5,495 nt of DNA from DATKZS01 sp035527835 [NCBI: bacterium] (lineage in GTDB: Bacteria > RBG-13-61-14): NCBI GenBank assembly GCA_035527835.1, contig DATKZS010000210.1, positions 1-5,495 of the forward strand, in the 5' to 3' direction. The notes under the pieces are model-generated. The model saw nothing but the letters and a program-made list of their open reading frames with translations. It searched no databases and was not told the origin of the DNA. A program made the position numbers and the translations under genes. Of this stretch, positions 240 through 5,495 are shown piece by piece. How positions within the stretch are numbered: the stretch's first letter is position 1; every line of letters starts with the position of its first letter.

Positions 240-2252
240 TCAGGCTTCCAGCATTTGCAGGAGCGAGCGGGCGGCGGGGTTTGAGGGCGCGTGGCGGAGG
301 AGGGTTTTCAGGTGCCTGATGGCGCTGGATTTGTCGCCGGCGCGGGCCTCCAGGACGGCGAGGTCGAGGAGGTAGGGGGAGTCGTTGGGAGAGAGGGCTG
401 AGGCTTTTTTATAAAGGGCGATGGCGGACGGGATGTTGCCGGCGGCCTGGGCGATTTTAGCGAGCTCGGCGTAGGGGTCGGGCCGGCGCGGGTATTGGGC
501 AATGAGGGTCTCGAGCTCTTGCCGGGCTTCTTCGGGATGCTGGGTTTTAAGGAGCACGCGGGCCAGCTTGAGGCGGGCGCCGAACTGGAGGGGGAACGCG
601 GAGAGCGACGCGCGGTAGTGCTTGATCGCGGCCTCGGTGTCTCCCCGGCCCTCGGCGATCCGGCCCAGGTCCTCATGGGCCCAGGCCGCGGCCATGCTCT
701 CGGGGCCCGGGGCATGCTCCAGCGTTTTCTCGAACATGGCGGCGGCGTCATCGGGCCGGTTCATGCGGGCCAAGAGCACTCCGAGCTGAAGATAGGGATC
801 GGGCTCGTCCGGCGCGAGCGCGACGGCGGTTTTATACTCGTCGAGCGCGCGGCCATACTCTCCCGTCCGGCTCAGGGAATTGGCGAGGAAGAGGTGGAAC
901 TCGGCGGGCGGCGGCTTGGGCGCGCGGGAGAGATCGTGGTTGCAAAGCGCGATGAGGACGGCGAATCCGGCCCCGGCGGCGGCCGCTGGCCGGTAGCGGC
1001 GCGCGCGGAATTTTTCTCGGAGCCAGAAGGGCAGCTCGGCGGCGAGGATGAGCAGAGCGGGGATGACGGGGAGGCGGTAGCGTGAGCCGATGAAGAAGAG
1101 GATGACGGAGGCCGCGTAAATTATTATGTATAAGAGGAGCAGGGACCGCTCGCGGGAGCGCCGGAAGAGGGAGAGGGCCATGGCGATGATGGCGGCGGGC
1201 GCGACGAGTCCGAAGGGGAAGGCGATGCCTCGCTCCCACATCAGGGCGGCGAGGATGCGCGAGTGGGCGCGATAGGAGTAGAGGTCCAGGTTGCGCGGAT
1301 ACTCATGGCCCCAGATGAACTGGCCGGCCTTGGCGGCGAGGCGGCCGGCCCAGGAGAGCGGCTGTTCGCGGATGTCCTGCCACGCCTGGTCCATGAACCA
1401 GGCCGAGCGTTGGCCGGGTTTTTCAGCGCCGTGGCGGCGCGGCGCGGCCATGAGGTCGGCCCAGGCAAAGCTCGGGCGGATGGCCGTGGTCCTTTGCCAG
1501 TCCCGGTTGTTGCCGATGTAGAAATTGGCCCCGCCGTTCGACGAGATGAGAACGAATTCATGGCTGACCGCGTAGTTGTGCATCGTCACGGGCGCGATTG
1601 GGAGGACAGCTCCGGCGATCATGACGGCCGCCAGTCGCGCCATGCGCCCCCGCCGCATTTGCCCGCGCCACGAATAAATAAGCCAGGCCGCGGCCGCGGG
1701 CAAAAACAGCAGGATATTGGGACGGACGATTGCGGACAGCCCGAAAACCGCGCCGGTCCCGAACACGATCAGCGCGCCGCGCGTTTTCGCCGAGCGGATC
1801 AGGCCGAGCAGCAGAAGGAGGTTGAGAAATGTCTCGAGCGTCGTGCTCAGATACTCGCCGTCGAAATAAATGAGCGGGCCGTAGAGCGCCGCGGCCAGGC
1901 CGGCGAGCAGGGCGGGGCCGGGCCGGGTCACGCGCCGCCCGAGCACGACCACGAGTCCGCAACTGAAGGCGCCGAGCATGGCCTGCAGGAGGTGCAGGAG
2001 CAGGTGGTTCTCGCCGAAAACCATGATCCCGAGCGCAAGCAGGTACGGGTAGAGCGGCGGCTGCCAGAAGGACTCCTCGCCCAGCCACAGGCCGTGGGCC
2101 ACGGCCCGGGCCTGGGCCAGATACGTGGCCGCGTCAACCGCCGGCACGGCGAAAAAAGGCAGGTCCCGGACCTCGAAGATATACGCCGCGCGCGCCGCGA
2201 ATGCCAGCGCGATCACGGCGAGTACGGCGGCGCGGTCGCGGGAAAGCTTCAG
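240..2252 (-). CDS. GT-C (family 39/ArnT-like) membrane glycosyltransferase with C-terminal TPR domain
   Basis: Likely an integral inner-membrane glycosyltransferase using a polyprenyl-phosphate sugar donor; acceptor unknown. Numbering is from a CTG at 2252 (670 aa). Roughly 11-12 hydrophobic segments occupy residues 8-445. The family's catalytic first loop is visible as VDAATYLAQA (Asp about 40), followed by WQPPLYPYLLA (about 63-73). Further family-like motifs are GLSAIVRPN, FVLISSNGGANFYIGNN and SRYRLPVIPALL. Residues from about 450 to the end form some six TPR-like helical pairs with the GEYGRALDEYKTAVALAP type of pattern, probably one soluble domain. The first GTG (2216, giving 658 aa) has no Shine-Dalgarno and would cut the first membrane helix. 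The CTG has GGAGG 8 nt upstream and overlaps the MaoC stop by 4 nt. The stop is a tandem TGA-TAG. The family assignment is firm; the exact substrate is not. Confidence 0.85.
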   Translation of the reverse strand: MKLSRDRAAVLAVIALAFAARAAYIFEVRDLPFFAVPAVDAATYLAQARAVAHGLWLGEESFWQPPLYPYLLALGIMVFGENHLLLHLLQAMLGAFSCGLVVVLGRRVTRPGPALLAGLAAALYGPLIYFDGEYLSTTLETFLNLLLLLGLIRSAKTRGALIVFGTGAVFGLSAIVRPNILLFLPAAAAWLIYSWRGQMRRGRMARLAAVMIAGAVLPIAPVTMHNYAVSHEFVLISSNGGANFYIGNNRDWQRTTAIRPSFAWADLMAAPRRHGAEKPGQRSAWFMDQAWQDIREQPLSWAGRLAAKAGQFIWGHEYPRNLDLYSYRAHSRILAALMWERGIAFPFGLVAPAAIIAMALSLFRRSRERSLLLLYIIIYAASVILFFIGSRYRLPVIPALLILAAELPFWLREKFRARRYRPAAAAGAGFAVLIALCNHDLSRAPKPPPAEFHLFLANSLSRTGEYGRALDEYKTAVALAPDEPDPYLQLGVLLARMNRPDDAAAMFEKTLEHAPGPESMAAAWAHEDLGRIAEGRGDTEAAIKHYRASLSAFPLQFGARLKLARVLLKTQHPEEARQELETLIAQYPRRPDPYAELAKIAQAAGNIPSAIALYKKASALSPNDSPYLLDLAVLEARAGDKSSAIRHLKTLLRHAPSNPAARSLLQMLEA

Positions 2253-2707
2253 GACGTTTTCCTCCGGATCATGATCGTGCGCTCGCCCTCCTGCGCCACC
2301 TCGCCGCGCTGGTTCATCACCTGGACCGCGAAGGTCACGATGCCGCGGTCCGGCTTCTTGGTCTCGCGCTTTGACTTGATGGTCTGGATGACGTGGATGG
2401 TGTCGCCGATGAAGATGGGCCCCTTGAAGCCCCAGGTGAGGCCGAGGAAGGCGACCAGGGTGTCGTTATAAAGATCCAACTGCTGGGTGAGCCCCGACGA
2501 GATGGCCAGGCCCAGAAGCCCGTGCGCGATGCGCTTTCCGAACTGCGTGGCCTTGGCGTGCTCGTCATTCATGTGCAGCTCATTGAAATCTCCCGACACC
2601 CCCGCGAAATTCACGATGTCAGCCTCCGTCACCGTGCGCGCCTTGGTCTTATAACTCGCGCCCACCTCCAGGTCCTCGTAAAACAGTCCACGCGGCCGAT
2701 CACTCAT
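2249..2707 (-). CDS. MaoC-like (R)-specific enoyl-CoA hydratase / hot-dog dehydratase
   Basis: A 152-aa single-hot-dog protein, a normal length for stand-alone MaoC-like enzymes. The hydratase-2 motif is present as AGVSGDFNELHMNDEHA (residues 35-51), with the expected catalytic Asp40 and His45 and conserved Asn42. RIAHGLLGLAISSGL (59-73) matches the IAHG-helix region, and GDTIHVIQTIKSKRET fits the later GD.(I/L)....V strand. The family hydrates trans-2-enoyl-CoA or dehydrates 3-hydroxyacyl-CoA, in the cytosol, in fatty-acid, polyhydroxyalkanoate or branched-acid pathways. The substrate cannot be read from sequence. One small oddity: Glu43 occupies the place of the common Pro in N-P-x-H. The ATG is fixed by GAAGGAGG 6 nt upstream. 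It is the first gene of the probable operon, and its stop overlaps the next start by 4 nt. Confidence 0.9.
   Translation of the reverse strand: MSDRPRGLFYEDLEVGASYKTKARTVTEADIVNFAGVSGDFNELHMNDEHAKATQFGKRIAHGLLGLAISSGLTQQLDLYNDTLVAFLGLTWGFKGPIFIGDTIHVIQTIKSKRETKKPDRGIVTFAVQVMNQRGEVAQEGERTIMIRRKTS
2261..2265 (-). promoter_or_regulatory. Ribosome binding site (GGAGG) deciding a CTG start
   Basis: Inside the last codons of the MaoC gene (CGG AGG AAA ACG TCC TGA) lies GGAGG, 8 nt before CTG at 2252-2250. No ATG, GTG or TTG in the glycosyltransferase frame lies at a usable distance. The next in-frame start, GTG at 2216, is about 44 nt from this site. The CTGA overlap is the CTG version of the familiar ATGA/GTGA coupling arrangement. 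Confidence 0.6.
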
Positions 2708-2889: not shown

Positions 2890-5495
2890 TCAGTTCCCGA
2901 ACGCGGCGTAGGTGAATGACGCGGTCCCGGCGGAGGCTTCGCCGGTCAGGGAATCGAAGGTGACGTCGAAGCCATCGGCGGTCACGTTGAAGATGAGCGT
3001 GTCAATGAATTTCCGGCCGCCGATGGGAGAGTCCAGCGCGGACACCCAGACGCGCGGCGGCGCGGCGAAGGCCTGGTTAAAGGACACGCGCATGGTCACG
3101 CTCGACGCCGGCGCTCCAATGGCCAGGACCCGGACGTCGGTCTCCAGCCGTCCGCCCAGCAGCTCCTCGGCCTTCACCGCGAAGGGAACCGAGGTGATGC
3201 GCTGCCGGGGCGTGAGCGCCTCGCCGTTAACCGAGACTTCGAGGTAGAGCTCCGGGTTCGAGAAGATGCCGGGCGCCAGCGGCGAAACCGAGCCCAGCAA
3301 CACGCTGTAAATTCCCTGCTGGACGGATACGCTGGCCTGCGTCTCGCCCCAGGCCACGGTCGCGCCGGCAAGACTGGTGAAGATCTGGAAGCGCATGCTT
3401 ACGGTCCCGCCCACGGCCACGCCGGAGGCATCGCTGAGCCGGCCCTGGTAATTGATCAGGCGCGGGGGCTGGACCGGGATGGAATTCGGATCATTGGGGT
3501 CAGTGCCCGCCGCGACCTCGGCGCCGTCGGAAAAGCCGTCATCGTCGGAGTCCGGGTCGAGCGGGTCGGTCGAATGAGTATTGACCTCGGCGCCGTCATC
3601 CAGCCCGTCGCCGTCGGTGTCGGCGAGCAGAGGACTGGTGAGCGGGACATTTATCTCATAGTCATCGTCCAGGCCGTCGCCGTCGGTGTCGGCCTCGCAC
3701 GGATCGGTCCCGGCGTTGTATTCTTCCAGGTTGGTGAGCCCGTCGGAGTCGAAATCTCCGGCGGCGTCGGCGGTGTCGGCATCGAGGCAGGAATAAGTCT
3801 TTTCCCATACATTGGGCATCTCATCGCCGTCGCGGTCCGTGAGCGCGTCTCCGACCTCCATGCCGTCGGGCACGCCGTCGGAATCGGTGTCCTCAAGGAC
3901 CGGGCTGGTATGAGTCACGTAAACCTCGCTCCAGTCCGAGAGCCCGTCGCCGTCAGTATCAATGAACCAGGGGTCGCTCAAATAAACGAACAGCTCCTCA
4001 TAATCCGTGAGCCCGTCGTCATCCATGTCCGCGTCATGAGGATCAGTCCCGAAAAATAACACCTCCTCCGCGTCGGTCAGCCCGTCTCCGTCCGCATCGC
4101 CGTCGGTCAGCGGGTCTGTTTGGATCACATTTATTTCCAGGCCGTCAGAAAGGCCGTCGTTGTCCGTGTCCGGATCCAGGGGATTGGAACCATAGACAAG
4201 ATATTCATCTCCATCAGAAACCCCGTCATCATCAGTGTCCCAATCGGAAGGGTCAGTTCCAAGAAGGTTCTCCACTGCCGGAGCAAGCCGGTCGCCATCC
4301 TGGTCAATCACGATCAGGGCGAAATATATTTCCAAATTCCCGTCCCGAGAATCTTGCCAGCTCACCCCGAACTCGCTCCCGGTCCAGGTAAGTTGAGCCG
4401 CTCCTGAACTAGCACCGTCATTGGTAATCCTGATATCGTCCCCGATCTCGGTTCCTGCGGCGGAAATCCTCGTGAAATAGATTTCATCATACCCATCCCC
4501 CCGCCCATCATACCAGCTCACCCCGAACTCGCTCCCGGTCCAAGTCAGGGAAGGCACCCATGATTCATCGCCGTCAGTTGTGATCCTGACGTCGTCCCCG
4601 ATCTTATTCCCTGCCGCGGAAATCCGCGTGAAATAAACCTCACCGTTGCCGTCCCGGAAATCATACCAGCACACCCCGAACTCGCTTCCGGTCCAAATCA
4701 GGGAAGTCCCCCCTAAATCTGCGCCGTCATTTGTGATCCTGATATCGTCCCCGATCTCAGTCCCTCCCGCGGAAATCCGCGTGAAATAAATCTCGTAATT
4801 CCCGTCCCTGTAATCAGTCCAGCTCACTCCGAACTCGCTCCCGGTCCAGGCCAGGGAAGGAGCCAATGAATCAGACCCATCAATGGTTATCCCGGTGTCG
4901 TCCCCGATCTCGGTGCCTCCCGCGGAAATCCGCGTGAAATAAACCTCCCAGTTCCCGTCCCGGTAATCCGTCCAACTCGCCCCGAACTCGCTCCCGGTCC
5001 AGGTAAGGGAAGGCTCCCATGAATCAGCGCCATCAATGGTTATCCTGGTGTCGTCCCCGATCTCGGTCCCTCCCGCGGAAATCCGCGTGAAATAAATCTC
5101 GTCGTTCCCAAAGCGTTCATCCTCCCAGCTCACCACGAACTCGCTCCCGGTCCAGGTAAGTGAAGATACAGATGAGTTGCCAATATAATTGGTTATCCGT
5201 TCGTCGCCTCCAAGTTTGCTGCCCAAGGGGGAGATTCGGGTGAAATAGATCTCAGAATCCCCATCCCTGGAATCATGCCAACTCACCCCGAACTCGCTCC
5301 CGGTCCAGATCAATGAAGGGTAGCCTGAGTTGGAGCCATCACTTGTGATCCGAACATCATCACCTGATTTCAAATAGGCGGGGACCACATCGGGATTCAA
5401 GGGATTCGATCCGCCCAGGCTCTCCACGCCGTCATTCACCCCGTCTCCGTCCGTGTCAGGGTTATTGGGGTCGGTGCCGGTGTCCGCCAAGTCCA
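2890..5495 (-). CDS. Large surface/secreted protein, 5' partial: TSP3 repeats, seven-blade beta-propeller, YQGRL module, lectin-like C-terminus
   Basis: Residues are counted from the TTG at 5490, which is not a real start: the frame is open to the edge and already inside a calcium-repeat motif (GTDPNNPDTDGDGVNDG). Order: one TSP3-like repeat (4-34); seven propeller units (42-395), each with WTGSEFGVSW, then a D-x-R-D-G-N-type turn and EIYFTRI; about eleven complete D-x-D-x-D-G-x-x-D calcium repeats plus a partial one (396-668); a module starting RLINYQGRLSD and ending LTPRQRITSVPFAVKAEE (677-776), typical of secreted proteins of environmental bacteria; and a final domain (798-866) with F..AF..PP.VWVSA, FNVTADGFDV and a YAAFG end, resembling H-type lectins. 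Cys568 and Cys598 flank one calcium unit and could form a disulfide. No LPXTG, PEP-CTERM or membrane anchor is visible at the C-terminus. Likely an exported adhesin or binding protein; the ligand is unknown. Signal peptide lies outside the window. Confidence 0.85.
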   Translation of the reverse strand, partial: DLADTGTDPNNPDTDGDGVNDGVESLGGSNPLNPDVVPAYLKSGDDVRITSDGSNSGYPSLIWTGSEFGVSWHDSRDGDSEIYFTRISPLGSKLGGDERITNYIGNSSVSSLTWTGSEFVVSWEDERFGNDEIYFTRISAGGTEIGDDTRITIDGADSWEPSLTWTGSEFGASWTDYRDGNWEVYFTRISAGGTEIGDDTGITIDGSDSLAPSLAWTGSEFGVSWTDYRDGNYEIYFTRISAGGTEIGDDIRITNDGADLGGTSLIWTGSEFGVCWYDFRDGNGEVYFTRISAAGNKIGDDVRITTDGDESWVPSLTWTGSEFGVSWYDGRGDGYDEIYFTRISAAGTEIGDDIRITNDGASSGAAQLTWTGSEFGVSWQDSRDGNLEIYFALIVIDQDGDRLAPAVENLLGTDPSDWDTDDDGVSDGDEYLVYGSNPLDPDTDNDGLSDGLEINVIQTDPLTDGDADGDGLTDAEEVLFFGTDPHDADMDDDGLTDYEELFVYLSDPWFIDTDGDGLSDWSEVYVTHTSPVLEDTDSDGVPDGMEVGDALTDRDGDEMPNVWEKTYSCLDADTADAAGDFDSDGLTNLEEYNAGTDPCEADTDGDGLDDDYEINVPLTSPLLADTDGDGLDDGAEVNTHSTDPLDPDSDDDGFSDGAEVAAGTDPNDPNSIPVQPPRLINYQGRLSDASGVAVGGTVSMRFQIFTSLAGATVAWGETQASVSVQQGIYSVLLGSVSPLAPGIFSNPELYLEVSVNGEALTPRQRITSVPFAVKAEELLGGRLETDVRVLAIGAPASSVTMRVSFNQAFAAPPRVWVSALDSPIGGRKFIDTLIFNVTADGFDVTFDSLTGEASAGTASFTYAAFGN
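3487..4305 (-). repeat. TSP3-like calcium-binding repeat array (about 12 units)
   Basis: Coding repeats of roughly 22-30 aa, each with a D-x-D-x-D-G-(L/V/F)-x-D-x-x-E core, for example DTDNDGLSDGLE, DTDGDGLDDGAE and DSDDDGFSDGAE. Linkers are of the type .GTDP or .TSP. One unit is the longer variant DRDGDEMPNVWE ... DFDSDGLTNLEEYNAGTDP, a common partner of such arrays. The acidic loops should bind Ca2+ and stiffen an extended stalk between the propeller and the C-terminal domains. The DNA of neighbouring units is locally near-identical, for example GTCGCCGTCGGTGTCGGC at 3607 and again at 3676. Confidence 0.85.
4306..5370 (-). repeat. Seven 153-bp in-frame repeats encoding a beta-propeller
   Basis: The codons for WTGSEF start at minus-strand positions 5307, 5154, 5001, 4848, 4695, 4542 and 4386. 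Successive intervals are 153 bp five times and 156 bp once (one extra codon in unit 6, where RDGNYE becomes GRGDGYDE). Across all seven copies those 18 bases show a single synonymous change (unit 5, GGG to GGA). Seven units of about 51 aa, each with four potential strands (RIT..., PSLTWTG, EFGVSW, EIYFTRI), fit one closed seven-bladed propeller. The blades are not Asp-box sialidase type; W-x-D-x-R-D-G-N-x-E-I-Y-F resembles TolB-like propeller repeats. Confidence 0.8.

Follow-up and report, generated by a model that had tools for sequence, protein, structure and literature searches.

A candidate CTG start codon overlapping the MaoC stop ahead of a GT-C glycosyltransferase gene

Anatomy of the junction and identity of the two genes

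The window considered in this work is the whole stretch of 5,495 nucleotides read as positions 1 to 5,495 of contig DATKZS010000210.1 (GenBank assembly GCA_035527835.1; DATKZS01 sp035527835, GTDB lineage Bacteria; RBG-13-61-14). On its minus strand, to which all junction coordinates below refer, a gene with an ATG start encodes a MaoC-like dehydratase of 152 amino acids (2707-2249; Pfam PF01575, 88.5 bits with a cut-off of 27) and is directly followed by a gene which encodes a membrane glycosyltransferase predicted to adopt the GT-C fold, with TPR repeats at its C-terminal end (2252-240; 670 amino acids from the proposed start; Pfam PMT_2 PF13231 and TPR families). The subject of our analysis is the start of this second gene, for which we propose a CTG codon overlapping the MaoC stop.

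The MaoC frame ends with ...ATC ATG ATC CGG AGG AAA ACG TCC TGA, and its TGA stop (2251-2249) shares bases with the proposed CTG start (2252-2250) in a CTGA overlap (2252-2249). A Shine-Dalgarno (SD)-like GGAGG is found at 2265-2261, separated from the CTG by an 8-nt spacer (2260-2253), and the CTG lies 20 residues before a conserved arginine, Arg21. The first ATG, GTG, or TTG of the glycosyltransferase frame is the GTG at 2216-2214, 8 residues before the conserved Arg, and inspection of the sequence upstream of this GTG revealed no SD-like sequence. Annotation from GTG 2216 would drop the 12 codons 2252-2217, (M)KLSRDRAAVLA, comprising a basic N-terminal tail and the beginning of helix 1. In the upstream direction, the glycosyltransferase frame stays open as far as a TAA at 2468; neither the 71 codons 2465-2255, nor position 2252 with its CTG, nor the next 11 codons provide an ATG, GTG, or TTG. 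The upstream open frame holds a single other CTG, at 2435, and between that codon and GTG 2216, the CTG at 2252 is the sole NTG of the frame. C2252 is at the same time the silent third base of the MaoC serine codon TCC, which as TCA, TCG, or TCT would yield ATG, GTG, or TTG, respectively.

The observation made in the first-pass annotation of this DNA is confirmed: the CTGA stop/start overlap, the GGAGG placed 8 nt before CTG 2252, and the absence of any ATG, GTG, or TTG before GTG 2216 are all exact. Its statement that the 12 codons encode KLSRDRAAVLA gives the right sequence, but the 12 codons correspond to the CTG plus 11 residues, (L/M)KLSRDRAAVLA. Adjoining the CTG upstream is an in-frame GTC (2255-2253) at an SD spacing of 5, the same codon as that reported for the start of Streptomyces sigR (PMC5472188).

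The ATG of the MaoC gene is preceded, 6 nt upstream, by AAGGAGG, which suggests that the organism probably uses SD signals. Relatives of MaoC were collected from 49 loci on genome contigs, the best of them with 54% identity, and no match to MaoC was obtained in viral contigs. Since the C-terminal end of 43 of the 49 relatives falls within -2 to +4 residues of the same point, MaoC ends like most of its relatives, and the junction can be accounted for without a frameshift.

The match of the glycosyltransferase to PMT_2 scores 40.5 bits (cut-off, 26.1), and its AlphaFold model has a predicted local distance difference test (pLDDT) value of 90.3. A Foldseek search with residues 1-440 gave 21 PDB entries with an E value of 0.001 or lower, 20 of which named OST/PglB/AglB, Pmt4, or ArnT, the remaining one being a secretory translocon. 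In the order of E values, the OST/AglB/PglB entries come first, with Pmt4 at rank 12 and ArnT at ranks 19 and 21, and the TM-scores by query of the matches to GT-C transferases range from 0.36 to 0.54. D40, R391, and R393, invariant across 27 aligned sequences, are retained in the window protein. We take OST/PglB/AglB, Pmt4, and ArnT to belong together as GT-C enzymes and D40, located after helix 1, to be the Asp that they conserve in their first outer loop. We classify the protein as a transferase of the GT-C fold that carries TPRs at its C-terminal end; it resembles PMT_2 (PF13231) proteins, ArnT, PglB/STT3, and Pmt4 in Pfam match, fold, and the conserved Asp (D40) after helix 1, and differs from them in carrying the C-terminal TPR array. 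The matches obtained are to PMT_2 and to a GT-C type fold; the label GT39 given in the earlier annotation is not established as membership in the CAZy family of that name.

The full-length fold search and the PDB sequence search were dominated by TPR proteins and were uninformative on the enzyme. Searching genome contigs with the glycosyltransferase query returned 13 pattern-matched stretches, none of which was confirmed; the glycosyltransferase domain had no match in plasmids, and the junction pattern with N at base 2252 had none in viral contigs. The occurrence of GT-C homologues is patchy, with 22 of 297 genomes of one phylum (E ≤ 1e-15) and 3 of 52, 2 of 198, and 5 of 95 genomes of three other phyla (E ≤ 1e-25).

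Position of the glycosyltransferase N-terminus

Homologues of the glycosyltransferase, identified in whole-genome searches, belong to several groups and display 23-38% identity. Among the 43 loci (L050 to L092), 36 were used for the N-terminal comparison, while 7 with E > 1e-15 or an alignment starting at or after query residue 80 were dropped; the 36 rows represent 35 distinct loci, L071 being the same place as L058. All 36 rows keep a basic residue at the end of helix 1, which is Arg in 30 of them and Lys in 6. In every row, 19-98 residues separate the outermost canonical start from this Arg/Lys, to be compared with 20 residues from the CTG and 8 from GTG 2216 in the window protein, and in three homologues the outermost start is an ATG at exactly 20 residues, equal to the distance of the CTG. 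Because the outermost start may lie too far upstream, a fairer comparison is offered by the 8 rows with a single canonical candidate, where the distance is 19-38 residues, in agreement with the CTG position; one of them, L074, has a frame that runs past the end of the locus, and its list of starts is possibly incomplete.

In the AlphaFold model obtained with 27 aligned sequences, helix 1 spans residues 4-28, with a mean pLDDT of 97 over residues 11-20, and in a domain-only run with 26 sequences it spans residues 2-28. A start at GTG 2216 would keep 16 of the 25 helix-1 residues and lose the basic N-terminal tail. The underlying alignments (A1 and A2) consist of the window protein with 26 and 25 of the 36 rows, respectively, and the N-termini of the homologues were trimmed at the nearest canonical start at least 14 residues before the Arg/Lys; the first columns are not independent of this choice. 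The predicted helix 1 supports the CTG start, although not as independent proof, the N-termini being hand-trimmed.

Scored with the gene's own codon usage, the 12 codons reach 2.53, where in-frame segments have a mean of 4.8 (standard deviation, 2.4) and off-frame segments have means of -6.1 and -6.9, with 1.2% and 0.5% of them attaining 2.53. Negative scores, from -0.8 to -11.6, were obtained for each of the five 12-codon blocks preceding the CTG. Against a profile of 35 homologues, the CTG form gains 6.7 bits over the GTG form, and the match starts at residue 6 of the CTG form or, when 71 upstream residues are added, at residue 3; even with these 71 residues on offer, no profile homology was detected upstream of the CTG. 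Since the extended version outscores the CTG form, the bit difference should be weighed lightly, and the informative result of this analysis is where the match starts.

As judged from these sequence comparisons, the coding region and helix 1 reach the CTG and do not extend beyond it. The claim that the codons upstream of GTG 2216 complete the first membrane helix is borne out by the modeled helix (residues 4-28), the starts of the homologues, the codon score, and the profile, and the true N-terminus very probably lies at the position of CTG 2252, upstream of GTG 2216.

Proposed initiation at the CTG and alternative explanations

The significance of the GGAGG was assessed by randomly re-encoding the MaoC tail with the codon usage of the window. 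GGAGG ending 4-11 nt before the NTG arose in 4.9% of the synonymous re-encodings, and a C before the TGA together with GGAGG in 2.8%. MaoC ends in RR, a feature common to many relatives, and its CGG AGG could come from codon choice. However, RR or KR occurs in the last 15 residues of 38 of the 49 MaoC relatives, but just 2 of the 49 contain GGAGG within their final 30 nt, which argues that the SD sequence is not a by-product of the protein sequence. Taken alone, the GGAGG is suggestive, amounting to about 1-in-20 evidence, and N-terminal homology is the stronger part of the case. An Rfam search gave nothing at gathering thresholds, and RNA folding around the junction was no stronger than that of shuffled sequences (z 0.63 and 0.93).

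We surveyed junctions in which a downstream frame overlaps a TGA as NTGA in 1.43 Mb, made up of the 49 MaoC loci and portions of two genomes, in which 1,223 genes were called by codon usage; this gene calling is crude, and the genomes differ from that of the window. The counts were 57 for ATGA, 61 for GTGA, 8 for TTGA, and 24 for CTGA, with an SD of at least 5 nt in 14, 10, 0, and 3 junctions, respectively; a further canonical start was absent between -90 and +30 in 23, 28, 0, and 4. None of these last 4 CTGA junctions has an SD of at least 4 nt, and the arrangement of the window did not recur in any of the 24 CTGA junctions of the 1.43 Mb. The survey thus suggests rarity, and the window would be a useful example rather than one of a common hidden class. 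In the survey (loci L001 to L049 and L093 to L132), eight of the 24 CTGA junctions have the sequence CTGATG, and the downstream gene probably starts there at the ATG, which overlaps the stop by 1 nt as TGATG, rather than at the CTG.

With respect to the codon itself, we lean toward genuine but weak CTG initiation by termination-reinitiation. Ribosomes ending MaoC translation at the TGA, or their 30S subunits, would be held by the GGAGG, within reach of the 16S tail, and would restart on the overlapping CTG with formylmethionine (fMet)-tRNA, which would yield a protein beginning with M-KLSRDRAAVLAVIALAFAARAAYIF and having its first transmembrane helix in full. Low output of the enzyme is expected because CTG is a poor initiator, and the membrane protein would be made in small amounts relative to MaoC and in dependence on MaoC translation. 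We infer that base 2252 is a C in the living organism, that fMet initiation takes place there, and that the two genes are coupled with low output of the second. What stands of the interpretation put forward in the first-pass annotation is the N-terminus upstream of GTG 2216, with the CTG as the sole NTG there having a well-spaced SD, whereas the identity of the base is less secure, an error at this position being conceivable. Its suggestion that coupled re-initiation permits the use of the weak codon is plausible.

If initiation at the CTG is true, the window offers a concrete natural CTG start where ribosome re-initiation could relax the choice of start codon, and a gene finder accepting the usual starts only would begin the protein 12 amino acids too late. 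Homology in combination with overlap geometry can locate N-termini missed by annotation limited to ATG, GTG, and TTG. A bolder proposal, which we regard as doubtful, is that the CTG is a selected codon, rescued at the CTGA overlap by a strong SD and termination-reinitiation, which keeps the membrane glycosyltransferase encoded behind MaoC at a constant low output, and that the gene exemplifies a small and hidden group of genes started at CTGA and annotated with a truncated N-terminus by callers restricted to the three usual codons.

Several observations weigh against initiation at the CTG. One silent change in MaoC would create a canonical start, so that the persistence of the C calls for an explanation unless it is an error. 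CUG is reported as the weakest NTG, accounting for 0.024% of bacterial starts with 0.86% of the efficiency of AUG (PMC11497404, citing another study), and in a mycobacterial selection with an SD, CTG is described as not enriched, at 0.03% (PMC4633059). The 23-38% identity of all homologues is too low for testing conservation of the codon. The pair of MaoC and glycosyltransferase was found nowhere else among the 49 MaoC and 43 glycosyltransferase-homologue loci: MaoC is present in 0 of the 43 stretches fetched around the homologues (L050 to L092), and a glycosyltransferase search covering the stretches around all 49 MaoC loci, in 14 of which the downstream genes were inspected, returned no glycosyltransferase and a single 50-residue TPR match in L045. 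Of the in-frame segments, 17% have a codon score equal to or below that of the 12 codons, and one opposite-strand frame over the same bases has a higher score (3.42 versus 2.53). The 6.7-bit gain in the profile comparison is small: with 200 shuffles and 200 random segments, it was reached 2 and 7 times, respectively. Adding the 71 upstream residues raised the score further (444.0 versus 430.6), an unexplained difference. The evidence from the SD is modest, with at least 5 nt of it in 24 of 126 ATGA, GTGA, and TTGA junctions versus 3 of 24 CTGA junctions.

The main rival, to which we accord a minor but real chance, is that the position is right and the base wrong, 2252 being, in the organism or in most of its population, part of an ATG, GTG, or TTG in an ordinary 4-nt overlap and the C representing an assembly error or a minority variant. 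Such a change is silent in MaoC (Ser TCC) and invisible in either protein, and ATGA (57) and GTGA (61) are the commonest junctions of the survey, versus 24 CTGA junctions, none of them like that of the window. On the other hand, both frames are open over their full length, the MaoC end is within the range of 43 of the 49 relatives, and the rate of assembly substitution errors is usually below the published rate of CUG starts, so that they would be expected to be rarer than 0.024%.

We deem unlikely a start at GTG 2216 by re-initiation 33 nt past the MaoC stop, which would result in a short helix 1. Although this GTG is the first canonical start of the frame and GUG reportedly reaches 58.4% of the efficiency of AUG versus 0.86% for CUG (PMC11497404), it is without an upstream SD, it lies 8 residues before the Arg where all 36 homologue rows have at least 19, it retains only 16 of the 25 helix-1 residues, and the 12 codons that it discards look coding.

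A recent mutation of a canonical start to CTG, leaving a decaying gene or a trace-level product without benefit, is quite improbable. The canonical start is one silent substitution away, and AUG-to-CUG switches do occur at a low rate, 2 being reported among 61,358 AUG starts reconstructed as ancestral (PMC5622118), but the frame of 670 codons is intact and the invariant D40, R391, and R393 are kept. Initiation at the in-frame GTC 2255, at an SD spacing of 5, would follow the example of sigR, whose GTC start is described as being under IF3 control (PMC5472188); we consider it very improbable, since the CTG still pairs with the anticodon at two of three positions, is better spaced from the SD, and forms the 4-nt overlap, and since the sigR start is, according to its authors, the first documented GTC start (PMC5472188). 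Finally, a -1 frameshift before the MaoC stop, for which the -1 phase of the glycosyltransferase frame relative to MaoC and the GGAGG AAAA before the stop could be invoked, is hardly credible, as no in-phase X XXY YYZ heptamer is visible by eye, the SD directly adjoins the run of A, folding is not above shuffles (z 0.63 and 0.93), no profile homology was detected upstream of the CTG, and a soluble dehydratase joined to a membrane enzyme would be an odd fusion.

Surroundings of the junction and comparison with known systems

Upstream of MaoC, a separate gene on the minus strand encodes a large repeat protein that enters from the edge of the window. It comprises about six tandem repeats of 153 nt (51 amino acids) at 4337-5308, of the type WTGSEFGVSWxDxRDGNxEIYFTRIS. 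Bacterial TSP3 repeats are also present, and an H-type lectin domain lies at the C-terminal end. Between this gene and MaoC, at 2808-2876, a 27-nt inverted repeat with 96% complementarity and a 15-nt loop may be either a terminator or a palindromic repeat of the dispersed type. Downstream of the glycosyltransferase, where no gene was assigned, imperfect short repeats are found at 1-42 and 11-192 (TGGGCCGCGG..., GTGGCCTGGA...).

CTG is given as the start of plasmid repA, Deinococcus deserti rpsL, and Escherichia coli O157 ano (PMC5960689). These genes and that of the window are alike in that CTG is proposed as a bacterial initiator; they differ in that the former rest on experiments and are presented in that account with no CTGA overlap described, whereas the evidence in the window is comparative only. 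In Salmonella, 4 of 26 new N-terminal proteoforms are reported to begin at CUG (PMC11005335), and in an E. coli N-terminome the non-ATG annotated starts comprise 50 GTG and 10 TTG of 688, with no others listed there (PMC13245402).

Gene pairs overlapping by 4 nt are established sites of termination-reinitiation (PMC6728339, PMC10666635). As proposed for the window, the start shares three bases with the TGA end of the upstream gene, and the SD is inside the upstream gene, a location that is frequent, but not universal, in such pairs. The pairs are given there as ATGA or GTGA, with "CTG" occurring 0 times in the main texts, whereas the window has CTGA, and a whole-word literature search found no paper treating a CTGA overlap with a CTG start codon in operons. 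Initiator tRNAs mutated in the anticodon have been shown to support re-initiation from non-AUG codons in E. coli, and non-canonical starts are counteracted by IF3 (PMC2268962).

A precedent for an unusual start codon in a coupled pair is Streptomyces sigR, whose GTC start is repressed by IF3 and is, to the knowledge of its authors, the first one documented; the same work notes as a limit that annotation is restricted to ATG, GTG, and TTG (PMC5472188). As proposed for the window, sigR presents a non-canonical start in a translationally coupled pair, where it possibly sets the ratio of two proteins, but in sigR-rsrA the odd codon is on the first gene, while in the window it is on the downstream gene (PMC5472188). 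Documented examples exist of CTG starts, of non-canonical starts under IF3 control, and of 4-nt overlaps, and the gene of the window would be a rare instance of a type already known, with its candidate start codon in an unusual position.

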